NCBI GenBank assembly: GCA_026392935.1
Contig: JAPLBE010000018.1
Span: 1-64,000, forward strand
DNA length: 64,000 nt
Origin: Actinomycetota bacterium
Lineage (GTDB): Bacteria > Actinomycetota > Actinomycetes > Nanopelagicales > Nanopelagicaceae
Direction: 5' to 3'
The notes under the pieces were generated by a model. The model did no database searches. It worked only from the letters and a program-made list of their open reading frames with translations, and was not told the origin of the DNA. Position numbers and translations under genes: made by a program. Below are positions 3,705 through 23,351 of this stretch, one piece after another. The stretch's first letter is position 1, and each line of letters begins with the position of its first letter.

Positions 3705-4472
3705 TTATTTGAAGAGTTGAATACTGCTTCCACCATCGATTTTGAAATCTGCACCAGTAATGAACCCCAGCTCATCATTAATCAAGAAGTAGACAAGGGC
3801 TGCAACTTCTTCAGGTTTTCCTAAGCGTCGTACAGGGTGGAACTCCGCCCACTCTGCGGCCACATCTTCAGCTGTGCGTCCCATAATATCTTCGGCAACA
3901 ATTTTTAGTAGCGGTGTGTTGATTGAGCCAGGAGAAACACTGTTACATCGGATGCCATCTAGCGCATGATCTACCGCAATTCCACGGGTAAGAGCTATAA
4001 CTCCAGCTTTAGAAGCCGCATACGCAGCTGTCGTTTTTTGATTCATATGTCCCAATACAGATGCAGTGTTAACAATTGATCCAGAACCATTTCTCTTAAA
4101 GATAGGTACTGCAAAAGATGAGGAGATAAACTGCGCAGTCAAGTTAACGCGAAGAGTGAATTCCCAATCTTCTAGTGACAATTTGTCAACTGTCCCGTAT
4201 CGAGCAATTCCGACATTGTTGAAAACTCCATTTAAGCTAGGGAGTTCTTTCTCTGCAAACTTATACGCATTCTCAATATCTTCAAATTTGGCGACATCAC
4301 AATGAACTGTCTTTATATTCTTTGACGACTTCTCAAGTTCACCGAGCTCTTTATCCAATACGTCTGCTGCAATGACATTCCAGTTGCGTTCACTGAAGTA
4401 TTTTGCAGTCTCGCCTCCGATTCCACGTGCTCCTCCGAAGATGAGAATGCCTTTATTTGAGTTATCTTTCAT
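3705..4472 (-). CDS. SDR family NAD(P)-dependent oxidoreductase
   Basis: 255 residues, a classical short-chain dehydrogenase. The cofactor loop reads GGARGIGG, the structural motif is NNVG in place of the usual NNAG, and the catalytic Ser and YxxxK are present (TASVLG, then YAASKAG). The C-terminus ends in the normal TGADFKIDGG. The start ATG overlaps the stop of the upstream lactonase gene by 4 bases (ATGA), indicating translational coupling. Such pairs usually oxidise an aldose to an aldonolactone (SDR) and then open it (SMP-30). That role is inferred from neighbours. Confidence 0.88.
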   Translation of the reverse strand: MKDNSNKGILIFGGARGIGGETAKYFSERNWNVIAADVLDKELGELEKSSKNIKTVHCDVAKFEDIENAYKFAEKELPSLNGVFNNVGIARYGTVDKLSLEDWEFTLRVNLTAQFISSSFAVPIFKRNGSGSIVNTASVLGHMNQKTTAAYAASKAGVIALTRGIAVDHALDGIRCNSVSPGSINTPLLKIVAEDIMGRTAEDVAAEWAEFHPVRRLGKPEEVAALVYFLINDELGFITGADFKIDGGSSIQLFK

Positions 4473-5356
4473 GCGCCTGTCCTTTCGTATCGATTGCTTT
4501 TGCTGCCCTTGAAAGTGGTACTTAATCTAAAAAGTGATCCAGCAAGTGGCTCTTTGGCCAAGGATTCTGAGTTCATCGCATAGCGGGCAGTTGTTATGAA
4601 GAGCTCAGTCATATCTTTTCCTCCGAAGCAGCAACTGGTCACTTGCTTTACAGGAAGAGTAACCACATGAGTGAGCTCACCGCTAGGGTCATATCGTCTT
4701 ACTTCTCCCCCGCCAAAAAAAGCAACCCAAATTCCACCATCTTCATCTGTTGTTAAGCCATCAGGAATTCCTGCTGCTACATCAAAAGTAATCAAAGGTC
4801 TGCGATTTTTTAGCTCTCCACTTTGAAGATCGCAATCGAAAATATCAACTCTTCCTGTTGGAGAGTCAATGAAATACATACTCTTCTGGTCTCTGCTCCA
4901 ACCCAAACCATTTGCAATCGTTAGTACAGGCACTACTTGCTTGAGACCTTTTGAATCTAGAGTAAATAACGCCGCAACACCTGGCGTGAAATCAAATGCC
5001 ATGGTTCCAACCCACATCCGCCCAGTGCTATCGCATTTGGCGTCATTGGTTCGTATCGAAGGATCATCTGCTTCGATTGGCGCGAGTAAAGTTTTAAGAG
5101 CGCCATCCTGGGATGCTGTAAAAACTCCATCTCGTGCAGCCACTATAAGTTCGGATTTTTGGTCTAAAAACACGGCGCTTACTTCTTGATCAAACTTAAT
5201 TGTTTTCACAGATGAATCAGAGGGAGAAAAAATTTTTACTTGCTTATTTGTAATATCTACAAAATATAGCTCTTGCTGAGCATCATCCCAATAAGGACCT
5301 TCGCCAAGATCACAATCTAATTCAACGGCGAGCTCAGCAGTAAGTACTTTAGGCAT
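4469..5356 (-). CDS. SMP-30/gluconolaconase-family lactonase
   Basis: 295 residues with the six-bladed propeller pattern of the SMP-30/Gnl/LRE family. ELDCDLGEGPYWDD near the start provides the metal-binding Glu. The middle has RTNDAKCDSTGRMWVGTM and TIANGLGWS (metal-binding Asn), then GIPDGLTTDEDGGIW (metal-binding Asp). The enzymes hydrolyse sugar lactones with a divalent metal. It lies between the dehydratase pseudogene, 12 bases upstream, and the SDR gene that overlaps its stop. This fits a non-phosphorylative sugar oxidation route in the cytoplasm. The native lactone is not known. Confidence 0.9.
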   Translation of the reverse strand: MPKVLTAELAVELDCDLGEGPYWDDAQQELYFVDITNKQVKIFSPSDSSVKTIKFDQEVSAVFLDQKSELIVAARDGVFTASQDGALKTLLAPIEADDPSIRTNDAKCDSTGRMWVGTMAFDFTPGVAALFTLDSKGLKQVVPVLTIANGLGWSRDQKSMYFIDSPTGRVDIFDCDLQSGELKNRRPLITFDVAAGIPDGLTTDEDGGIWVAFFGGGEVRRYDPSGELTHVVTLPVKQVTSCCFGGKDMTELFITTARYAMNSESLAKEPLAGSLFRLSTTFKGSKSNRYERTGA

Positions 5357-5368
5357 CTGCTAAATCAG

Positions 5369-6549
5369 TCACTTTGCCTTGGAAGTGCGGACAATTACTT
5401 CATCAGATGAGCGAACCCACGACTGTAAAGTGATTCCATGTCCGCTTGCATCGGAAATGTAGATTCTTCCATTTTCAATCTTTGGAATACCATCAACAAA
5501 GTCCTTATACCAAGTATGTAAAAATGCGCGAGCAGTCTCTTGTAAGAAACCATTTCGTTGTGACAGTGAAAAATGTGTGCTCGTTGCAAGTGCTACAGGT
5601 CCTGAGCAGTCGTGAGGTGCAACTGGTACTGCAAATAAATCTGCGAGCGAGGCAATCTTTCTAGATTCGGTAAGCCCGCCTGTCCAGGAAATATCAATTG
5701 TTAAGTAATCTACGGCGCCATTTTCCAGCAGCGGAAGAATCTGTCGTCTTCCAATCGCGGTTTCACCGGTAGCAATCGGAACAGAAATCTCTGAGCGAAG
5801 CTGCTTCAGCGCATCTACTGCATCTGGGCGTAGCGGATCCTCAATCCAGAATGGTTGATAAGGAGTGATTGCATCAATAATTCGCTTAGCTGTTGGTCGG
5901 TTCCAGAGTGCATGGAATTCGATCATCAAATCCATATCCATACCGACTTCGTCACGAATCGCGGAAATAATTTTCACGCCATCTTCTATCTCTTTCTGTG
6001 AAATAGAGTTTCCAAAAGATTTCTCTGCAGCTGGATCAAATGGCCAAATCTTCATGCCTTCTATGCCACTGTCGTACAGTTCGCGAGCAAGTTTTGCGGG
6101 AGTGTTAAAAAATGCTTCTAAATCTTCATACCCCTTCGCCTTGGACTCGGCAACGCCCCAGTTCTTTGAATTCTGACTCGAAGTTTTTTTCATGTATAAA
6201 TTTTTACAGAATCTTGGAGGTTTCCACCTAAAGAATCTGCCATCGTCGCATTGATTGATTTGCCCCAAAGATCCCAGATTGCTATATCCAAAGCACCTAA
6301 GGATCGAACTTCAATTCCGCCACCTTGATATCCAACGTAAGGAGTTAATGCAAAATTTAATGATTCAGGATTGATATTCGCACTGGCAAATATCAGAGGC
6401 GCAGCAATTGTGTGGATGTACTCCTCTATAACTGTTTGACTAAAGAATGACTCTCCAAGCCCGACATTTCCTTTGTCGTCATGCACTTCCACCCACAAAG
6501 AAGAGGGGTGCGCCAATGGCCTAAAGGTTTCAATCTTCGTTATCTTCAT
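5369..6549 (-). pseudogene. mandelate racemase/muconate lactonizing enzyme family dehydratase, frame broken at about 6196
   Basis: The gene is in two frames. The first 118 codons from ATG 6549 give the capping domain (MKITKIETFRPL to DSVKIY) and stop at 6190. The second part, in a different frame from about 6196 to 5369 (about 275 codons), gives the barrel: KIW (KxK-type lysine), IEFHALW, WIEDPLR, TGETAIG and the APHDCSG histidine segment. Together they make about 392 residues, close to the 390-400 of related sugar-acid dehydratases. Relatives I recall have roughly seven more residues (an NTCAGYKY-like stretch) exactly at the break, so a loss of 3n+1 bases is likelier than a one-base slip. 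It may be a true pseudogene, a strain-specific deletion or an assembly error. All metal ligands remain in the second part. Confidence 0.8.
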
Positions 6550-6613
6550 TACTCAATTCTTCTCTCTAAAAAATGCATGGGGAACAAGTCGTAATTGTCA
6601 TGACTAAAAAGTG

Positions 6614-6667
6614 CCTGAGGAGAGTGGCGTTCTGACGCCATCAGAGTAAATCGCCACCCCCCTCAGG
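6614..6667 (-). terminator. long hairpin between the binding-protein gene and the dehydratase gene
   Basis: CCTGAGG (6614-6620) pairs with CCTCAGG (6661-6667) and GTGGCG (6624-6629) pairs with CGCCAC (6652-6657). On the minus strand the stem is followed by a short T run (CACTTTTTAG), as in an intrinsic terminator. It lies just after the binding-protein stop at 6677, where partial termination would keep binding-protein mRNA more abundant than the downstream enzymes. An alternative small hairpin, GGCGT-TCTG-ACGCC (6626-6639), uses one arm of the large stem. Confidence 0.6.
6631..6645. repeat. TCTGACGCCATCAGA inverted repeat, first copy of a shared 13-mer
   Basis: The 15 bases have perfect 5-base arms (TCTGA and TCAGA) around CGCCA. 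The first 13 bases recur in opposite orientation at 7754-7766, so the binding-protein gene is flanked by the two copies. This copy lies in the loop of the long hairpin. It could be an operator or simply part of an RNA structure; no known consensus is recognised. Confidence 0.4.
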
Positions 6668-6676
6668 ATTCTTTAT

Positions 6677-7705
6677 TTAAGCGAATACAGCCTCACGCTT
6701 CAAGATTGCAGTGATGTTTGATGCATCAATAACTGCTGAACCTGTGTCGTATGAGAACGACTTGAAGCCTGGTGACATTTCCATCGCCAAGAGTGAAGAC
6801 GCAACCCATCCCTGTGCCCATGGGTTCTGATCCAATGTGAAGTCGATGTTTCCGGCCTTAATTCCCTGTAGTACAGGCTGAACTAGGTCGAAACCGCCGT
6901 TAGACAACTTCAGATTCTTGCGCTTCATAAGTGCACCGAAGAACTGGTGTGAGAACTCAGTTCCGATGTAACCAACAACATCACCCTTTGCTAAACGTGC
7001 ATCCATAATTGCTGATGCTTTAGCTTCATCACTTGATGTCACCAAAACTTCAGTTGTATATGTTGTTCCGTTTGAGGCGTTGTATGCAGCTACACCTTGC
7101 TTTGCACCAGCAGCACGGTCTTCAAGAGCCGAGTTACCAGGAGCGAAGTTTCCAATAAGAATAACTCCAGAAGTTTTTCCGGTCTTCTTCTTAGCGTATG
7201 TAGCACCTTGGATTCCAGCAATCTTTCCTGCTGGAACGAAGTCTTGACCTACAAATGGAACGCTGAGAGCTTCGTATCCCGCAGAGCCTACGTTTGTAAG
7301 TACTACCTTGATTCCAAGGCTCTGTGCCTTCTTGATGTTGGCATCAAAAGCTTTGCTATCAATTCTTGTGAAGATCACTCCATTTGGCTTTGAAGCAATC
7401 GCTGCAGCCTGAAGTTCAACTGTCTTCTGAATGTCTTGTCCTGTTGGACCAACATAGTTGACGCTCCAGCCCATAGATTTTCCGAATTCACGGAAACCTC
7501 GCTCTAGAGGAACGAAGAACGGGTTCAAATCGTGAATAACGCAAGTAACTTTCTTGCCACGTTGAATTGCTGCTGTCTTAGTAGCAGCCGCTGCAAAAGG
7601 TGTTCCGATTACAGATGAAGCACCTAGTAGAACAGCTGATGCGCCGCCTGCCTTTAGGAGATTGCGGCGGTTTAAACCACTCTCCTCTAATGTTTCCTTA
7701 TCCAT
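6677..7705 (-). CDS. sugar ABC transporter substrate-binding protein (RbsB/PBP4 type), Tat-exported
   Basis: 342 residues. The N-terminus has a twin-arginine signal (NRRNLLKAGG, then a hydrophobic stretch ending AAAA about residue 40), so it is probably exported folded. The mature part is a type I periplasmic-binding fold of the ribose/galactose class: DLNPFFVPLERGF near the start, the VIFTRIDS strand, and the hinge-side EFSHQFFGAL and GFDLVQPVLQGI segments. It delivers a sugar-like ligand to the permease and ATPase encoded upstream. TTTCTCC-type spacing upstream gives a good Shine-Dalgarno (AGGAG). A hairpin follows the gene. Confidence 0.9.
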   Translation of the reverse strand: MDKETLEESGLNRRNLLKAGGASAVLLGASSVIGTPFAAAATKTAAIQRGKKVTCVIHDLNPFFVPLERGFREFGKSMGWSVNYVGPTGQDIQKTVELQAAAIASKPNGVIFTRIDSKAFDANIKKAQSLGIKVVLTNVGSAGYEALSVPFVGQDFVPAGKIAGIQGATYAKKKTGKTSGVILIGNFAPGNSALEDRAAGAKQGVAAYNASNGTTYTTEVLVTSSDEAKASAIMDARLAKGDVVGYIGTEFSHQFFGALMKRKNLKLSNGGFDLVQPVLQGIKAGNIDFTLDQNPWAQGWVASSLLAMEMSPGFKSFSYDTGSAVIDASNITAILKREAVFA

Positions 7706-7753
7706 TTTTTCTCCTTAGTTAGGCCTGAGCTCTTTCAAACTAGGCTGGGTGTG

Positions 7754-7766
7754 TGATGGCGTCAGA
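7754..7766. repeat. second copy of the TCTGACGCCATCA 13-mer
   Basis: TGATGGCGTCAGA on the plus strand is the reverse complement of the 13-mer at 6631-6643. It lies in the 69-base gap between the permease stop and the binding-protein start. Two exact 13-base matches in the two gaps either side of one gene could be a regulatory site, but a chance match cannot be excluded. Confidence 0.35.
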
Positions 7767-7774
7767 TCTATGTT

Positions 7775-8770
7775 TTACGTTCGAAGAGTCTTCCTCTTCT
7801 GCGCAACCAAAGTATTGATAACTACTGCCGCCAGGATTAGTAATCCGTTAGCAACAAAAGTCCAGTTTCCGTTTACGCCAACAAGCACGAGCACGTTGGT
7901 GATCAAACCGCCAACAATTGCTCCTAAAGTTGCTCCCAGAATTGTTCCGGAACCACCAAATAGGCTTGCTCCACCAACTGCGATAGCACCGACAATCAAT
8001 AATTCCTGTCCCTGGCCGGTGAGCGGATTCGAACTTCCTAGCCAACCGACGAGCATGATGCCAGCCCATGTAGCCAAGAAACTTGAGAGCATGAAGGATT
8101 GAATCTTCACTTTAGCTACGTTGATTCCGGCATTTTGCGCTGCAACTTTATTTCCACCAATTGCATACAAATCGGAACCGAACTTACTTTTCGCCAATAC
8201 AACTCCAACTATTGTGCATAGTGCGATCATCCAATACACCTGTGCAGAAATCCCAAGGAAAGATCCACCTACAAGTCCTGAAAAAGTTTTAGATTCTTTT
8301 GCGTAAATTGGAACGCCACCCGAGATTAGAAGTGTTGCTCCTCGCAATGCGCCAAGTCCCGCCAGCGTTACCACGAATGATGGGATGTTGAGCCTGACGC
8401 TGACATAACCATTTAACCACCCAAGGAAGACACCAAGTAACAAGGTGACAACGATCGAAGGAAGAATCGGCCAATCCATCTTCACTGAAAGCCAGGTGTA
8501 CATCACAGCACCAAGACCGTAAATCGAGCCAATTGATAAATCAATCTCGCCACAAATAACAACGAGTGACATACCAGCTGCACAAATCGCAACGTAGGAA
8601 ATCTGCTGAAGAATCGTGTTTATATTTGTGCCAACAGCGAAGTTCGGAGTTAAAGACATCGCAACGATAACGACTCCAACAATTGCAACAACGACACCAA
8701 ACTCCTCAGCACGCAAAATTCTGCCAATTCTGCTCTCATGTTTATCTAAGCGTTTAGCTTTGCCCGACAT
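7775..8770 (-). CDS. sugar ABC transporter permease (RbsC/AraH type)
   Basis: 331 residues from the ATG at 8770, which has an AAGGG Shine-Dalgarno and begins one base after the ATPase stop; a GTG three codons earlier is less likely. The protein is mostly hydrophobic with about 8-10 membrane segments. It has the family signature GEIDLSIGSIYGLGAV near residue 80 and the EAA-like loop region NVAKVKIQSFMLSS, with GGASLFGG after it. It forms the membrane channel of a ribose-type importer with the neighbouring ATPase and binding protein. Confidence 0.9.
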   Translation of the reverse strand: MSGKAKRLDKHESRIGRILRAEEFGVVVAIVGVVIVAMSLTPNFAVGTNINTILQQISYVAICAAGMSLVVICGEIDLSIGSIYGLGAVMYTWLSVKMDWPILPSIVVTLLLGVFLGWLNGYVSVRLNIPSFVVTLAGLGALRGATLLISGGVPIYAKESKTFSGLVGGSFLGISAQVYWMIALCTIVGVVLAKSKFGSDLYAIGGNKVAAQNAGINVAKVKIQSFMLSSFLATWAGIMLVGWLGSSNPLTGQGQELLIVGAIAVGGASLFGGSGTILGATLGAIVGGLITNVLVLVGVNGNWTFVANGLLILAAVVINTLVAQKRKTLRT

Positions 8771-8771
8771 G

Positions 8772-9551
8772 CTATTCACCCTTCAATTCGGTTGATTGAT
8801 TCTGGAGGTTATGTTTAACAAAGCTCTGATCGCCAACGATCATGCTGACTATCTCTTGTCTAGTGGTTTCCTTAGTGTTGCGAATTCCAGCAACTTGCCC
8901 AGCACGCATAACAACGATGCGATCTGAAACCGCCAAAACATGATCAATATTGTGGCTGATGATGACAATTCCTTTTCCTGAATCTCTGAGCTCTGTAACG
9001 ATTCGCAGAACGTTGGCTTGCTGCTCAGGCCCAAGCGCCGCAGTTGGCTCATCTAGTAAAACAAAATCACTGCCTAAGCGAACTGCTCTTGCAATGGCGA
9101 TGCATTGACGCTGTCCGCCAGAGAGTGATTCAACTTGCAACTTTGTAGAGGAGATTTTGATTTTAAGTTGATCCAGCAACACTTTGGCTTCTTCGCGCAT
9201 CTTTGAAATTCTGACAAATCCGAATTTACGTAACTCGTGTCCCAAAAATACATTTCGAGCAACATCCATACTTCCAACAAGTGCTAAATCTTGATACACA
9301 ACTGAGATTCCATTTTCCACTGCATCTTGTGGTCTGTTAATTACTCGTACGCTTCCGTCGATGACGATCTGTCCGCTATCTGGTTTTGTTGCACCGCAGA
9401 GAATTCGAATCAAGGTTGACTTGCCAGCTCCGTTGTCGCCCATCAGAGCAACAACTTCTCCAGAATTGCATTCGAAATCAACCGAATTCAGCGCCTGTAC
9501 TCCACCGTACCGCTTTGCTAGACCTTCGGCTTTGAGCGTTGTTGTCGTCAC
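8772..9551 (-). CDS. sugar ABC transporter ATP-binding protein, single ATPase domain
   Basis: 259 residues with one nucleotide-binding domain: Walker A GDNGAGKST, signature LSGGQRQ, Walker B FVLLDEPTAALG, and the H-loop histidine in IISHNIDHV. Canonical ribose importers use a ~500-residue double ATPase. This half-size form must work as a homodimer. The GTG start shares one base with the stop of the upstream regulator gene (TAGTG), so regulator and transporter are translationally coupled. It powers uptake through the permease encoded next. Confidence 0.92.
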   Translation of the reverse strand: MTTTTLKAEGLAKRYGGVQALNSVDFECNSGEVVALMGDNGAGKSTLIRILCGATKPDSGQIVIDGSVRVINRPQDAVENGISVVYQDLALVGSMDVARNVFLGHELRKFGFVRISKMREEAKVLLDQLKIKISSTKLQVESLSGGQRQCIAIARAVRLGSDFVLLDEPTAALGPEQQANVLRIVTELRDSGKGIVIISHNIDHVLAVSDRIVVMRAGQVAGIRNTKETTRQEIVSMIVGDQSFVKHNLQNQSTELKGE

Positions 9552-10417
9552 TAGATTTCTCCATTTTCTTCTTGGTTTTTACTATTTGTTTCTGTAACCA
9601 TCTCGGCCGCAGCATCAATGAGCTTTCGGTGCAACGGATCTATCTGGGCTTGATTTCGAAGCACCTTAGCTAGAGGAAGATGTAGGTCGTCGCCATACTT
9701 TTCTTGGCCGATTAACATGATTTGTCGCATGTAATTCTGCGCACCCTCAGAGTCTCGCGCCTCGATTGCCTCAACAACTTTGACGTGCAGTGGAAGTCCA
9801 AGATTCGAAATCGTATGGTCAGTTAAGCTGCGAGTAATTGTCCCGAAAACTAAATTCTTAATAGAGCTAAAGAGAATAAGCAGAACTGGATTCTGTGATG
9901 CTTCTGCAATGCGCTCATGGAATTTCACATCTGCAAGTACGCTCTCATTTGGATCAGTGGTCGGTTGCATATGGTGATTGCAAAGTTCCCGTAGGACTGC
10001 AATATCTTCATCGGTACGGCGGATTGCAGCTAACCCAGCAGTTGCGCATTCGATCATCAAACGTGCCTCAATGAGATCAGCTGGCGTGACCAGTCCCTGT
10101 CGTGCTGCATTGACTACGCGAAATGGACCAGTCTTCGATTGGTCCTGAATGTAGGAACCACGACCAGGTTGAACTTTTATCAACCCCTGCCCTTCCATCG
10201 AGCGAAGGACTTCACGCAACGTTTGTCGGCTGACAGAGAAGAGTGAGGCTAAATTTCTTTCGGATGGGAGACGATCGCCAGGCTTAGCTTGAGCTGAGAA
10301 AATAAACTCTTCCAAAGCAGTTTGAAGTTCTCCACCACTTGGCGGAGTTAGCGAGGTACCAAGGAGACCCTCAGAAACGAATTCAGAGGCTCCGGTAGTA
10401 CTGGTCTGACCACTCAT
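9551..10417 (-). CDS. GntR-family transcriptional regulator, FadR (FCD) subfamily
   Basis: 288 residues from ATG 10417 (an in-frame ATG at 10447 would add 10). The N-terminal winged helix shows PGDRLPSERNLASLFSVSRQTLREVLRSMEGQGLI, read here as overlapping short segments. The C-terminal half is an all-helical FCD ligand domain with ADVKFHERIAEAS, which supplies metal/ligand-binding Asp and His. It is first gene of the transporter and catabolic operon and divergent from an SDR gene. A FadR-type operator lies at 10402-10412. It probably represses its own operon and is released by the imported acid or a pathway intermediate. The 10417 start is preferred because the upstream ATG falls inside a good promoter. 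Confidence 0.88.
   Translation of the reverse strand: MSGQTSTTGASEFVSEGLLGTSLTPPSGGELQTALEEFIFSAQAKPGDRLPSERNLASLFSVSRQTLREVLRSMEGQGLIKVQPGRGSYIQDQSKTGPFRVVNAARQGLVTPADLIEARLMIECATAGLAAIRRTDEDIAVLRELCNHHMQPTTDPNESVLADVKFHERIAEASQNPVLLILFSSIKNLVFGTITRSLTDHTISNLGLPLHVKVVEAIEARDSEGAQNYMRQIMLIGQEKYGDDLHLPLAKVLRNQAQIDPLHRKLIDAAAEMVTETNSKNQEENGEI
10402..10412. promoter_or_regulatory. FadR-type operator candidate TGGTCTGACCA
   Basis: The 11 bases match the FadR-subfamily consensus TNGTNNNACNA and form TGGTC/GACCA arms around one base. The site overlaps the first codons of the regulator gene, just downstream of the predicted transcription start. A bound dimer there could block both the regulator operon and possibly the divergent SDR promoter. 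Confidence 0.5.
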
Positions 10418-10424
10418 TCCGGTA

Positions 10425-10453
10425 TCCTTATCCCAACCCAGTTGCATGTCAAG
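10425..10453 (-). promoter_or_regulatory. predicted promoter of the regulator-transporter operon
   Basis: On the minus strand a perfect TTGACA (10453-10448) is followed after 17 bases by TAAGGA (10430-10425). The ATG at 10417 comes 7 bases later, so transcription would start at or next to the start codon and give a leaderless mRNA. The -10 hexamer is weak. Confidence 0.4.
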
Positions 10454-10480
10454 GGTTTTCTCTAGATTTCGGAGGCCAAA

Positions 10481-11242
10481 ATGAGTTCTCAGAGAGTGAT
10501 CATTACGGGTGGAAGCGGCGATATTGGCTGCGCCATGGGAGCAAGGCTTTTTCGAGATGGGTTCTCGGTCACTCTTTTGGACTTAAAGGCACCCTCCGAG
10601 GTATCCGATGATGCGAAAGCGCTGATGGCACTTTCGAAAGATGGCCATGAATGTGTGTACCGGCAGGTGGATGTGACCAACCGGGCAAGGGTCGATGAAG
10701 TTCTATCGGAGTTCGAGAAAGATCTAGTCGCTGTCTTGGCAAATGCTGGAATCGTTAAGTCAGAACCATTCTTGGAAATTTCTGAAACGTATTGGAATCA
10801 ACATTTGAATGCCAATCTCACCGGGGTTTTCCATACGCTGCAGAGCGCGGCAAAAATCTTTGTAAAGAACAAGCGCCCCGGACAAATCATTATCACCGGA
10901 TCATGGGTCGGCACTGTGCCTTGGCCTGAGATAGCCGCATATTCGGCAACAAAGGCTGCGGTAGAAATGTTAGCAAAATCTGCTGCGCGCGAACTTGCAG
11001 AACACAAAATCAGAGTCAACGTTATTGCGCCGGGAATTGTCAATGCAGGCTTAGCACGACACCAGTTAAATACTGAGCCTCAGTATGCAGCTCGAGTCGC
11101 CAAGGTTATTCCGCTAAAGGAATTGCAAACAGCTGAACAGGTAGCAGATATTGCTTCATTCTTATGCTCTAAATCTGGAGACTACTTAACTGGGTCAACC
11201 ATCTTGGCCGACGGCGGAGCATCGCTTTTCCAATTTGACTAA
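10481..11242 (+). CDS. SDR family oxidoreductase
   Basis: 253 residues of the classical SDR type: cofactor loop TGGSGDIGCAMG, Asp for adenine ribose after it (LLDLK suggests NAD), NAG in LANAGIVKS, catalytic Ser in TGSWVG, YSATK with the Tyr and Lys, and the C-terminal LTGSTILADGG. A GGAGG Shine-Dalgarno is 7 bases before ATG. It is transcribed divergently from the FadR-type regulator with only about 60 bases between starts, so it is probably controlled by it. It is likely a second dehydrogenase of the same catabolic pathway. Confidence 0.88.
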   Translation: MSSQRVIITGGSGDIGCAMGARLFRDGFSVTLLDLKAPSEVSDDAKALMALSKDGHECVYRQVDVTNRARVDEVLSEFEKDLVAVLANAGIVKSEPFLEISETYWNQHLNANLTGVFHTLQSAAKIFVKNKRPGQIIITGSWVGTVPWPEIAAYSATKAAVEMLAKSAARELAEHKIRVNVIAPGIVNAGLARHQLNTEPQYAARVAKVIPLKELQTAEQVADIASFLCSKSGDYLTGSTILADGGASLFQFD

Positions 11243-19652: not shown

Positions 19653-20822
19653 TTAGTATTCGCTAATTACCGTTTTATACATTCGCGAGAGTGCAAACTC
19701 GTGGTGTCCGCCACGTTCTGCCTTTGTTAGCTTTCCGTTTGCAACTTCAATGATTTCAGCGAAAATGCGATCTCCGACTTGAGCAAGAGTCTCAAGTCCG
19801 TCGGCAATCGTGCCAGCATCAAGATCAATGAGATCTGGAATTGCAGAATACATGGGAGTATTGGTTGAAACTTTTATAGTTGGCATAATCGCAGAACCAG
19901 TTGGTGTTCCGCGACCAGATGTAAATACGACAACATTTATATGTCCTGCACCGAATCCTGCAAGCTGTTCAATGTCATGACCTGGGGTATCCATAAAGTA
20001 CAAACCTGGTGTCAATGGTTTTTCGCCAAATTCCAGTACTCCGGTAAGTGGCGCATTTCCTGCCTTCTTTGCTGCACCCAAAGATTTTTCTTCCAGAGTA
20101 GAGAGTCCTCCTTCAATATTTCCGCGAGAAGGTTGAGCACCGCGAATGTCGATTCCCTCGTAGTTAATCGACGCTTCATAACGAGAAACCATGGCAACAA
20201 TGCGCTTTCCTACTTCAGGATCAATCGCGCGAGCAGCAAGCAAATGTTCTGCTCCAAGAATCTCAGTTGTTTCACCTAGGACAGACGTTGCACCTAATTC
20301 AACAAGACGATCACTTGCTACGCCAAGAGCTGGATTTGCAGTGATTCCCGAGAGAGCATCAGAACCGCCGCACTCGAGTCCCAGAACAATCGCACTCCAC
20401 GGTGCTTCTATGCGTTTTTGTGATTTTGCTTCAGCAACATATTTATTGGCAACCACAAGTGCATCAGATTGCAATTTCTCAAGAGAACCGATTTCAGGTA
20501 ATGAAAGAACCGTGAAATTCTTAAGCCCTAACGCTTGTGCGCCATCGATGATTGACTTCTCTTCAGCGTTTCCAATAATCAGGAAAACAACTGCGTAATT
20601 ATTTGGATTTGATGCATACCCAGAAAGAGTAAACAGTATTCGCCGAAGATCACTATCAATCTCGCCAGACCAATCGTGACTAATTGCCACGGCTCCGTCA
20701 GATGTGTCAGCAATTGTGCGAGCAGTAGAAGCTAGCGCAGAATGCAGCGGAAGAACTAGGACATTGTTACGCAGTCCCCAACTGCCGTTATCGCGTAAGT
20801 AAGCAAATAGCTTCTCGCTCAT
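19653..20822 (-). CDS. UxaA/SuyB-family dehydratase large subunit with degenerate N-terminal domain
   Basis: 389 residues. The C-terminal part is canonical for altronate/galactarate dehydratases and sulfolactate lyases: GLECGGSDALSG, ITANPALG, YFMDTPGHDIEQL, FTSGRGTPTGSA, IKVSTNTPMY. The N-terminal domain keeps RNNVLVLP but has SALAS where relatives have VVCSN, and IIGNAEE where they have GLGCE, so its catalytic cysteines are lost. The adjacent 272-residue gene has them. Together with the SAF-domain gene they would form one enzyme that eliminates water (or sulfite) from a 2-hydroxy acid. Its start shares one base with the stop of the previous gene. Confidence 0.82.
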   Translation of the reverse strand: MSEKLFAYLRDNGSWGLRNNVLVLPLHSALASTARTIADTSDGAVAISHDWSGEIDSDLRRILFTLSGYASNPNNYAVVFLIIGNAEEKSIIDGAQALGLKNFTVLSLPEIGSLEKLQSDALVVANKYVAEAKSQKRIEAPWSAIVLGLECGGSDALSGITANPALGVASDRLVELGATSVLGETTEILGAEHLLAARAIDPEVGKRIVAMVSRYEASINYEGIDIRGAQPSRGNIEGGLSTLEEKSLGAAKKAGNAPLTGVLEFGEKPLTPGLYFMDTPGHDIEQLAGFGAGHINVVVFTSGRGTPTGSAIMPTIKVSTNTPMYSAIPDLIDLDAGTIADGLETLAQVGDRIFAEIIEVANGKLTKAERGGHHEFALSRMYKTVISEY

Positions 20823-21640
20823 TAGACGCTCCTGACAACTCGTGGCGCACGGATTTCACCGCTTTTATTCTTCTCAGCAATAGTGTGAGTTCCATTTGCA
20901 ACTGATTCGATTAAAGCGGTGATTTCTGCATCAATTTGTGACTCGGCTATATCAAAATCAGCCCGAATAGCTTGGTGCAGGATGCTCGAACTTGCGACAT
21001 TGATAACTGGAAAAAGTGGGAATCCTGATGGTGGCTGTGTTTCACTCGGAAAACTAATTACGATGTGCGCCTTCTCTTGCGCTAAACGAGAGAAGGATTC
21101 AGCAGATGAAAATGGTGAATCCGAGATAATTACTGTGTGGCCAGCTGCTTCAAGTAGACCTTTGAGTGTCGAGATTCCAGGAAATTGGCGACCATTATCA
21201 ATCCCCACACGAAGAGTTGTGATCTCTGCAGACACTGGAACAAATGAAGTGTTTAACTCGCGCGCTGCTTTTACTCCAGCTTCAACGGTTCCTTCTACTC
21301 CACCACTTTCTTGAATGATCCTGTACTGAGTTGATTCATTGCGCTCGAGTAATTTCGCAGCGAGTTCCTGTCCTTGGATAGTCTCGCAACCAAGACCAAT
21401 TACAAGGGCTGAATTAACATTGGGATGGTCGGCTAACTGAATAAAGAAATTATCGATACCCGCAACGTCGTCTCCGATGATCGCGCAACCGTGTTGATGG
21501 GCAAAAGTGACAGCGTCAATTTCGGTGGCAATGCGACGTGAAACATGGGTTGAACAGATAACGGATGGAAGAATAAGTTGATGGTTACGAATTCCATTGC
21601 CACGATTTCCGTGAGCGAATCCCTTGATGGCCGAACTCAT
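20822..21640 (-). CDS. UxaA-family dehydratase subunit, complementary to the large subunit
   Basis: 272 residues. The N-terminal domain is canonical: GNRGNGIRNHQLILPS, the Cys in VICSTH, HGC in AHQHGCAIIG, and GLGCETIQ. The second domain is degraded: where relatives have the CGGSDG/S segment this reads LRVGIDNGRQ, and the whole domain is shortened (ends at ~272 instead of ~390). It therefore carries the motif half that its neighbour lacks. It overlaps the SAF gene by 4 bases upstream and the large-subunit gene by one base downstream, so the three are produced together. A paired heteromeric enzyme is inferred. Confidence 0.78.
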   Translation of the reverse strand: MSSAIKGFAHGNRGNGIRNHQLILPSVICSTHVSRRIATEIDAVTFAHQHGCAIIGDDVAGIDNFFIQLADHPNVNSALVIGLGCETIQGQELAAKLLERNESTQYRIIQESGGVEGTVEAGVKAARELNTSFVPVSAEITTLRVGIDNGRQFPGISTLKGLLEAAGHTVIISDSPFSSAESFSRLAQEKAHIVISFPSETQPPSGFPLFPVINVASSSILHQAIRADFDIAESQIDAEITALIESVANGTHTIAEKNKSGEIRAPRVVRSV

Positions 21641-21912
21641 GATTGCGCCGATGAAAGTCGATCGCCCAAGATATTGTGAACATGGACATGCTCACCGATA
21701 GCAATAGGCACAACTGCATGGCCCATGCGTTCACCATACTTAATGACTCCGTCATTCTTAGAAATCACTTGAGTGGCAATCTTGTGACCACGCGGAATCT
21801 TGTTCAAAACCTTAATTGAGATGTCATCTTGTTCTACAACATCACCTATCTCAAGATCGACCAGACAGACGGCGATGTTATCGCGCGAATCTAGGATCAG
21901 TATTCTTCTCAT
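21637..21912 (-). CDS. UxaA/SuyA-type SAF-domain subunit
   Basis: 91 residues from ATG 21912 (MRRILILD); the frame is open 18 residues further but this start fits the domain. It is a single SAF domain, as in the N-terminal ~90 residues of altronate dehydratase or as the separate SuyA. It shows DNIAVCLVDLEIGD, IPRGHKIA, and IKYGERMGHA. It serves as the substrate/metal-binding lid of the dehydratase. It follows the FAD dehydrogenase gene by 10 bases and overlaps the next subunit gene by 4. Confidence 0.85.
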   Translation of the reverse strand: MRRILILDSRDNIAVCLVDLEIGDVVEQDDISIKVLNKIPRGHKIATQVISKNDGVIKYGERMGHAVVPIAIGEHVHVHNILGDRLSSAQS

Positions 21913-21922
21913 ACGGGGCACT

Positions 21923-23314
21923 CTAGTGAAAGATTTTGCCGGGATTGAGAATTCCATTTGGATCAAGTGCTGCCTTTATCGATCTCATCACTGTAATTGA
22001 AGACTCGCCCGCTTCTTCCAACAGAGATTCAATCTTTCCGGCACCAACACCATGCTCACCTGTGCACGTTCCGCCCATCGCAATAATCTCAGATGTTGTC
22101 TTGTGTGTGAGAGCTCGTATCTGATCTAACTCTTCAGGTTTTGCAGGGTCAGTAACAATAAAGGTGTGGAAGTTTCCATCAGCAACATGGCCAAGTATCG
22201 AGAATGGGAATCCTGAATCTTTTAAAATATTCTCAGCAACTGTAACCGCATCGGCCAACCTGGAAAGTGGAACTGCGGCATCAGTACTAATTGCGCGTCT
22301 TCCAGGGTGGGCTGCAATTCCTGCCCAATATGCGTTGTGACGAGCTTGCCATAACTTTCGTCGCTGACCTTCTTCGGTTGTCCACTCAAAGTTAGTTCCA
22401 CCAAATTCTGATGTGATTTCTTGAACTACTTTTGCATCTTCTTCTACTCCACGAGGAGATCCGTGGAATTCAAAGAGCAGTGTTGGGGCTTCTTCGAGAG
22501 TTAATCCATCATGGGCATTAACATTTTTAATTGATTGAGCATCAAGAAATTCACAACGTGCAATTGCAACACCAGATCGCACAATAGCAATTGCAGCTTG
22601 AACCCCGTCAGAAAGTGTTGGGAATCGAGAGACAGCTGCGGCCATTTTCTCTGGGATGCCAAATACGCGAAGGGTTATCTCGGTAACGATTGCGAGTGTT
22701 CCTTCAGATCCAACAATTAGACGTGTTAAGTCATATCCTGCAGATAATTTACGAGTCTCGCGACCTGCATGAATTACTGTTCCATCAGCTAATACTGCGG
22801 TGAGTTTTAGTACATTCTCGCGCATGGTTCCATAGCGCACCGTGGTAGTTCCGGCGGCGCCAGTTGAGGTCATTCCGCCGATGGTTGCATCTGCGCCAGG
22901 ATCTACTGAGAAGAACAGACCGTCATTTGCTAACTTCTTGTTAAGGGCCATGCGCTTTACGCCTGCCTGCACAGTGACTGTTAAATCATCAGGGGAGATT
23001 TTGAGAATTGATTCCATCTCACTGAGATCGAGTGAGATTCCACCAAAGAGAGGCAACACGTGGCCTTCAAGTGATGAACCCACACCAAATGCAACGACAG
23101 GGATTTTTTCTGCGTTGCAGTAAGCAAGCACCTTCGACACTTCTTCAGTGGATTTAACTGTTACGACCGCAGATGGGCGTATTGGTGGAAATGCAGATTC
23201 ATCACGACCGTGAGCATCGAGAACTGATTCATTTTGAGAGAGGCGGCCATCGACAAGAAGTGAGAGTGCCTTTACTTGCGCATCAGTAAGATCGACGCGC
23301 TGCGTAATTGCCAT
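21923..23314 (-). CDS. FAD-linked D-2-hydroxyacid dehydrogenase (GlcD/D-lactate dehydrogenase family)
   Basis: 463 residues from ATG 23314; ten earlier codons belong to no domain. The PCMH-type FAD domain shows VVAFGVGSSLEGH and SVDPGADATIGGM with YGTMRENV, and the C-terminal cap ends with GTCTGEHGVGAGK. The family oxidises D-lactate, glycolate or longer D-2-hydroxyacids and passes electrons to quinone or an acceptor. Its operon partners are dehydratase subunits, so the substrate may be the same sugar-derived or sulfonated hydroxy acid. It lies 37 bases after tRNA-Glu and could be read through from the tRNAs. Confidence 0.88.
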   Translation of the reverse strand: MAITQRVDLTDAQVKALSLLVDGRLSQNESVLDAHGRDESAFPPIRPSAVVTVKSTEEVSKVLAYCNAEKIPVVAFGVGSSLEGHVLPLFGGISLDLSEMESILKISPDDLTVTVQAGVKRMALNKKLANDGLFFSVDPGADATIGGMTSTGAAGTTTVRYGTMRENVLKLTAVLADGTVIHAGRETRKLSAGYDLTRLIVGSEGTLAIVTEITLRVFGIPEKMAAAVSRFPTLSDGVQAAIAIVRSGVAIARCEFLDAQSIKNVNAHDGLTLEEAPTLLFEFHGSPRGVEEDAKVVQEITSEFGGTNFEWTTEEGQRRKLWQARHNAYWAGIAAHPGRRAISTDAAVPLSRLADAVTVAENILKDSGFPFSILGHVADGNFHTFIVTDPAKPEELDQIRALTHKTTSEIIAMGGTCTGEHGVGAGKIESLLEEAGESSITVMRSIKAALDPNGILNPGKIFH

Positions 23315-23351
23315 CAGTAACTCGATTCTTATCGAAGTGTGCAACGAATTG

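Follow-up and report, generated by a model that had tools for sequence, protein, structure and literature searches.

In the UxaA/GarD superfamily (COG2721), UxaA of E. coli (b3091) combines three domains, the N-terminal D1 followed by D2 and D3, in a single chain of 495 residues, and GarD (6u7l) likewise holds all four of its cysteines in a single chain. These four cysteines are described as conserved in the superfamily, with sulfolactate sulfo-lyase excepted, in a report where the D-arabinonate dehydratase C785_RS13685 is a brown protein with ferric-iron electron paramagnetic resonance signals and Cys-to-Ser mutants of it were made (PMC6336799). SuyAB, the (R)-sulfolactate sulfo-lyase, has a separate small subunit and one large chain, in which D2 is free of cysteines and the D3 motif reads KCGESD. 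UxaA-type enzymes from more than one gene have been linked to L-fucose use: A19U_RS0100650/0655 of Paraburkholderia mimosarum is described as a two-gene L-fuconate dehydratase, called heteromeric from gene context (PMC6336799), and cj0482-cj0483 of Campylobacter jejuni as a hypothesised one (PMC12566272). Here we describe three overlapping genes in a stretch of 64,000 nucleotides from an Actinomycetota bacterium of the Nanopelagicaceae (assembly GCA_026392935.1, contig JAPLBE010000018.1, positions 1 to 64,000), hereafter called the window. They encode a small SAF protein and two larger chains, B and C; together, the three probably make up a single iron-dependent dehydratase of sugar acids, of the UxaA/GarD type.

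Domain composition and the division of the cysteines

The genes overlap by 4 bases (SAF/B) and 1 base (B/C). Their coordinates are given in Table 1, where the SAF gene is bounded by its ATG start; the mechanically called open reading frame starts at TTG, 21966. The SAF protein matched the Pfam SAF domain with 26.9 bits against a cut-off of 21 (scored on the longer TTG frame), and altronate hydrolase 3k3s with a phmmer E value of 6.5e-15. Chain B matched D2 (PF04295, GD_AH_second) with 98.7 bits against a cut-off of 27.3, and its D3 appeared as a remnant of PF20629 at residues 169-263 only, with 17.8 bits, under the cut-off of 26.8. Chain C matched D3 (PF20629, GD_AH_C) with 309.4 bits and D2 (PF04295) with 51 bits against the same cut-offs, and galactarate dehydratase 6u7l with a phmmer E value of 2.5e-59. 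Searched alone against solved structures, chain B had no match up to E 1, but a profile built from B and related chains aligned with the D2 and the final part of the D3 of 6u7l (E 1.4e-8). Across the trio the D2, D3 and SAF domains of the superfamily were all above cut-off, and a search of the window's genome for other proteins with D2 or D3 gave none. The domains are the same three as in UxaA, spread over three chains; the large part exists in two copies, each intact in one half.

All four cysteines of UxaA align with cysteines of the pair, three with the D2 of B and one with the D3 of C, and the set is complete only across the two chains. For the motif count, chains were assigned to B or C by profile score and not by motif, which gave 80 matches to each before duplicates were removed. 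C29, C52, C85 and H48 were kept in all 46 distinct B chains and CGG in none of them, whereas CGGSD was kept in all 47 distinct C chains, none of which had a cysteine at any of the three corresponding D2 positions; the C chain of L014, cut by a contig end and below the score limit, was left out. Cysteines were present elsewhere before CGGSD in 20 of the 47 C frames, four of which have one two residues past the first motif position; the C frames were taken from the first start, and some of these extra cysteines may precede the true start. In the sequences examined, the division into three cysteines in B and one in C is without exception. An earlier note on this DNA, made by a model from the letters alone, had the coordinates, frames and lengths of the 272- and 389-residue proteins right, as well as the separate SAF protein, the gene overlaps, the D3 motifs kept by the longer chain (ECGGSD with C151, and MDTPGHD) and the motifs CSTH, HGC and GLGCE (C29, H48 to C52, and C85) kept by the shorter one. 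It also called the second domain of B shortened and lacking CGGSD, and indeed the N-terminal half of D3 is gone with the C-terminal half still recognisable. For chain C it had claimed the loss of two cysteine motifs; the loss is real, and the number is three.

Co-occurrence of the two chains

C was present in 38 of 151 Nanopelagicaceae genomes (E 1e-100 or better). Full-length B, at 228 bits or more, was found in 37 of these 38 and in none of the other 113 (Fisher p 1.5e-34 for 37, 1 versus 0, 113, a value that ignores kinship), while in the remaining C genome, G207, B runs off the contig end. B or a contig-cut piece of it therefore stands beside C in all 38 genomes, in contrast to the one large chain of SuyAB, for which no B partner was seen in the loci examined. 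The order SAF-B-C, on one strand and with gaps of at most 16 bases, was observed in all 37 stretches fetched, which come from 36 of the 37 B genomes (the window's own being left out) and from G002. At one locus (L050, genome G118) the B and C frames overlap heavily, which looks like a frameshift or an assembly error. Two records titled Bifidobacterium breve and Streptomycetaceae (L017, L018) carry a B 68% identical to that of the window and are probably mislabelled metagenome bins.

The same trio was found in haloarchaea. A tblastn search of plasmids with a haloarchaeal B gave matches of at least 48% identity in 16 haloarchaeal records, which the window C matched as well; fourteen were fetched, and the other two carry a B at least 99.7% identical to a fetched one. 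Alignment to UxaA showed the three-plus-one division in all 14 fetched trios. The gene order here is C-SAF-B, with overlaps of four or one base except at L020, where the annotated B start lies downstream and a longer frame from 3839 restores the overlap. In haloarchaeal B, D3 is nearly full length with CGGSD turned into forms such as SSD, and in haloarchaeal C the D2 cysteines are lost. The fetched records label the trio as three 'UxaA family hydrolase' genes.

Conservation of the domain halves

Pairwise identities were compared at 45 loci, kept from 79 with both chains after L050 and near-duplicates were dropped. For Nanopelagicaceae (595 pairs, 35 loci) the medians were 0.659 for B-D2, 0.451 for B-D3, 0.523 for C-D2 and 0.781 for C-D3, with B-D2 above B-D3 in 590 and C-D3 above C-D2 in 591 of the 595 pairs. 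For haloarchaea (45 pairs, 10 loci) the corresponding medians were 0.600, 0.493, 0.632 and 0.819, with B-D2 higher in 44 of 45 pairs and C-D3 higher in all 45. Within each chain, the half without motifs is the faster-evolving half. Among 11 single-chain relatives the medians were 0.614 for D2 and 0.669 for D3, D2 being the lower in 53 of 55 pairs.

A predicted composite iron site and its alternatives

These results point to B and C forming an obligate heteromer with one composite iron site. B would pair with C much like two copies of the single-chain enzyme, the D2 of B giving three sulfur ligands and the D3 of C the fourth together with the substrate pocket. The SAF protein would take the role of D1, and the D2 of C and the D3 remnant of B would serve as a non-catalytic scaffold half. 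The chemistry, by analogy with the characterised relative, would be removal of the alpha-proton followed by loss of the 3-OH to give a 2-keto-3-deoxy acid. GarD is reportedly a dimer made through D2 with the metal in D3, an arrangement that would suit the pairing of B with C. The two-gene L-fuconate dehydratases consist of two genes and not three, a comparison made by description and not by sequence.

Other members of the family offer alternatives. Of the weaker family matches in Nanopelagicaceae, below the level of B, those at 17 places and in genome G027 were fetched as 18 stretches. Thirteen of these held chains of the SuyB type, of which one runs off its contig; a fourteenth held a broken chain of this type, and the other four held B-like chains. 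The SuyB-type chains (L012, L176-L180, L186, L187 and L189-L193) have KCGES and no D2 cysteines; the name SuyB is our own assumption, made largely from gene context, since the database records do not use it. Their presence in many Nanopelagicaceae genomes suggests sulfolactate use in these freshwater bacteria. C and SAF could themselves be a complete SuyAB-like enzyme, with B an accessory such as a regulator or an iron-loading partner, inasmuch as SuyB-type chains share the cysteine-free D2 of C and have only a small UxaA/SAF-like neighbour, in loci that lie beside hpsN/hpsO in Cupriavidus and near a gene of the sulfate-exporter family in Paracoccus. This explanation is unlikely. All 47 C chains have CGGSD against KCGES in the SuyB-type chains viewed, B always adjoins C and keeps exactly the residues that C is missing, and the trio neighbours examined included no recognised sulfonate gene, many of these neighbours being unassigned. 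Nor did the D3 tree favour a clade of Nanopelagicaceae C with SuyB, although such a clade was not rejected (AU p 0.175; see below). Sulfo-lyase function itself was dropped as a candidate, CGGSD being against it and so being the gene context as far as neighbours were assigned.

Somewhat less probable still is that B and C are separate homomeric enzymes with different reactions that share only an operon. Each chain does keep a different conserved half, and a few genomes have a B-like chain in the absence of C. The four B-like chains in Table 1 are 343, 367 and 374 residues long (the fourth is cut by a contig end), score 67.6-79.6 bits against the B profile, and combine a weak D2 with the absence of CGGSD and an additional stretch at the C terminus; in L182, L185 and L004 of G027 the chain adjoins what we take to be an extracellular solute-binding protein. 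The B-like chain is a distant relative and not an orthologue; in G146, which has no C, it is nonetheless an instance of a broadly similar chain that does without C. Two homomers are nevertheless hard to reconcile with the lack in each chain of part of the known four-cysteine set, with the strict co-occurrence and contiguity of the genes, and with a single SAF gene per trio for two large chains. Decay or mis-assembly of a single-chain gene is a highly improbable source of the pair: a few loci do look broken (the overlapping frames of L050 in G118 and an apparently frameshifted single-chain relative, L067), but its occurrence in 38 of 151 genomes and in 14 complete plasmid records of haloarchaea, along with conservation of the motifs throughout, contradicts this. 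The D2-only and D3-only split at L067 had been considered as a further variant and was read instead as this frameshift.

A search with the B profile of 296 Actinomycetota genomes (E 1e-20) gave matches in 25 genomes at 26 places, namely the window B, 14 single chains with CGGSD (13 of about 390 residues and one of 505), seven SuyB-type chains, two longer UxaA-like chains, one contig-end fragment and one apparently frameshifted chain. No second B/C pair was found at this threshold, which more divergent pairs could escape.

Origin of the pair and structure models

In both the D2 and the D3 trees, every included group formed one clade; Nanopelagicaceae B was absent from the D3 tree. Approximately unbiased (AU) tests rejected none of the unions tried. 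For D2, the p values were 0.536 for the B chains of Nanopelagicaceae and haloarchaea, 0.514 for their C chains, 0.384 for B with C of Nanopelagicaceae, 0.586 for B with C of haloarchaea and 0.467 for all four. For D3, they were 0.121 for the two C groups, 0.179 for these with haloarchaeal B, 0.165 for haloarchaeal B with C, 0.175 for Nanopelagicaceae C with SuyB and 0.392 for haloarchaeal C with SuyB. In a plain LG tree built from the entire alignment, haloarchaeal B grouped with Nanopelagicaceae B, a grouping that we do not trust because of the long branches. It is plausible that B and C come from one duplicated chain; on the trees, they may or may not be sisters within a lineage. It is conceivable, though rather doubtful, that the three-plus-one iron site was fixed as an obligate heteromer twice independently, in Nanopelagicales and in haloarchaea, each time by complementary loss of opposite halves after duplication of a single-chain dehydratase, the alternative being a single shared origin with transfer.

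The AlphaFold model of B, built with 7 close sequences, had a predicted local distance difference test (pLDDT) score of 66 and a predicted TM-score of 0.70. When it was compared with the PDB by Foldseek, nothing matched at E 0.001 or better and the 50 matches listed included no galactarate dehydratase, so that the model was uninformative. The model of C was poor (pLDDT 42).

Substrate and pathway context

UxaC (PF02614, E 1e-20) was found in 28 of the 151 genomes, and 27 of these also carry C (Fisher p 5.9e-20, uncorrected for kinship). This association suggests D-altronate dehydration in those genomes, so that D-altronate would be the substrate of the trio where UxaC is present. In 13 of the 37 stretches the trio adjoins UxaC, a protein of the mannitol dehydrogenase family and a protein of 353 residues. 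The better named matches of the dehydrogenase include fructuronate and tagaturonate reductase, all under cut-off. The 353-residue protein (L155:11400-12461, minus strand) had no match in Pfam or NCBIfam, and its GLSGGG motif presumably marks a resemblance to alpha/beta hydrolases. When seven UxaC-linked genomes were searched for D3, the C of the trio was the sole full D3 protein, with a D3 fragment of 162 residues in an open frame additionally present in G097.

Other neighbours of the trio were homologues of flavin mononucleotide (FMN)-dependent L-lactate dehydrogenase in 14 of 37 stretches, rhamnulokinase-like genes in 5 of 37, and an alpha-L-fucosidase and a 2,4-didehydro-3-deoxy-L-rhamnonate hydrolase-like protein at one locus each. 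These neighbours fit deoxysugar acid routes to pyruvate and lactate, the products in which route 3 of L-fucose is described as ending (PMC11199699). The window's own genome gave no match to UxaC (PF02614); it encodes three proteins of the FAH family, of which one lies at a distance of 3 kb from the trio, and, at another place, an FMN-dependent dehydrogenase. The substrate of the window trio might be an acid with a similar C2-C4 configuration, for example L-fuconate or D-arabinonate. D-arabinonate comes into question since its breakdown is described as yielding glycolate (PMC6336799), a possible substrate of the GlcD-type oxidase next to the trio. Galactarate was dropped as a substrate, as the scores were far below the cut-off of 730.85 of the galactarate dehydratase equivalog TIGR03248 (222.4 for C, 30.9 for SAF and 25.2 for B).

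Neighbouring genes and feature coordinates

The GlcD-type oxidase, a probable operon neighbour of SAF, scored 325.8 bits against TIGR00387 (glcD), below the cut-off of 567.9. A second sugar-acid cluster of the window (3705-11242) holds SDR proteins, a sugar ABC transporter and a GntR-type regulator. The best match of its enolase-superfamily dehydratase begins at profile position 143, and the protein is possibly truncated or frameshifted. The cluster also holds a protein that we take to be gluconolactonase-like, for which NCBIfam gave no match at 1e-20.

Table 1. Positions of the trio, its cysteine codons, the adjoining oxidase and the B-like chains (window positions unless a locus is named)
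Feature	Position	Strand	Remarks
SAF protein, 91 residues	21637..21912	minus	counterpart of N-terminal domain D1 of UxaA/GarD
Chain B, 272 residues	20822..21640	minus	D2 intact; D3 as C-terminal half only, without CGGSD
Chain C, 389 residues	19653..20822	minus	D2 without cysteines; D3 intact, ECGGSD and MDTPGHD
B Cys29 codon (ICSTH), first D2 cysteine	21554..21556	minus	aligns with E. coli UxaA Cys132; 46/46 distinct B
B Cys52 codon (HQHGC), second D2 cysteine	21485..21487	minus	aligns with UxaA Cys166; 46/46 distinct B
B Cys85 codon (GLGCE), third D2 cysteine	21386..21388	minus	aligns with UxaA Cys199; 46/46 distinct B
C Cys151 codon (ECGGSD), D3 cysteine	20370..20372	minus	aligns with UxaA Cys264; 47/47 distinct C
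GlcD-type FAD-linked 2-hydroxyacid oxidase	21923..23344	minus	PF01565 and PF02913; 10 bases upstream of SAF
B-like chain, G061	L181:1290-2321	plus	two of three D2 cysteines
B-like chain, G158	L182:1520-2623	minus	no D2 cysteine
B-like chain, G146	L185:1534-2658	plus	two of three D2 cysteines, 79.6 bits
B-like chain, G027	L188:1910-2773	minus	contig-cut; only third position visible, non-cysteine

Discussion

Several observations weigh against a composite dehydratase of B, C and SAF acting on sugar acids. The B-C complex is a prediction from sequence, and the single-chain structure models are poor. SuyB-type chains lack the D2 cysteines with no adjacent B seen, so that a partner is not required for chains of that kind, and G146 has a B-like chain but no C. 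In haloarchaea, C-D2 (0.632) is not less conserved than B-D2 (0.600), and some of the pattern in C is to be expected anyway, given that single chains likewise show a faster D2; relaxation is seen more clearly in B, where the order of the two domains is reversed. As to the substrate, 11 of the 38 trio genomes have no UxaC match (27 of 38 have one), 24 of 37 stretches, many of which end with their contig, have no UxaC near the trio, and a search for UxuA in 13 genomes gave matches in 8, so that the UxaC step could also feed mannonate dehydration. The neighbours of the trio are unrelated at L163 (cobalt transport, glutamine synthetase) and at L133 (ABC-2 transporter, amino-acid permease).

The earlier note had read the pair as a duplicated chain subfunctionalised into an obligate heteromer. 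Complementary loss, co-occurrence, adjacency and the lack of any other protein found with either domain in the window's genome all support that reading indirectly, and the search for joint occurrence that it proposed found B with C in 37 of 38 genomes, the 38th being contig-cut; duplication of one chain, for its part, is plausible. It would have given the reading up had the motifs been intact in both chains, where they are divided throughout, or had either subunit occurred alone and active; no orthologue stands alone in the 151 genomes, while two kinds of distant relative do, the SuyB-type chains and the rarer B-like chain. It could match the architecture to no described enzyme, and our literature search (titles and abstract beginnings, few subscription papers) likewise brought up no description of a large chain that is doubled and has lost complementary parts. 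The architecture does exist outside the window, in the haloarchaea that carry the same trio.

If confirmed, the composite enzyme of B, C and SAF would be a clean natural case of two gene copies sharing one metal site, neither working alone. The Nanopelagicaceae and haloarchaeal sets stand at different stages of loss, the D3 of B being about half in the former and full-length and motif-less in the latter, so the order of loss could be studied. The annotation of the haloarchaeal genes as three separate 'UxaA family hydrolases' would be corrected, and in the freshwater Nanopelagicaceae that carry UxaC, the trio would supply the altronate dehydratase.

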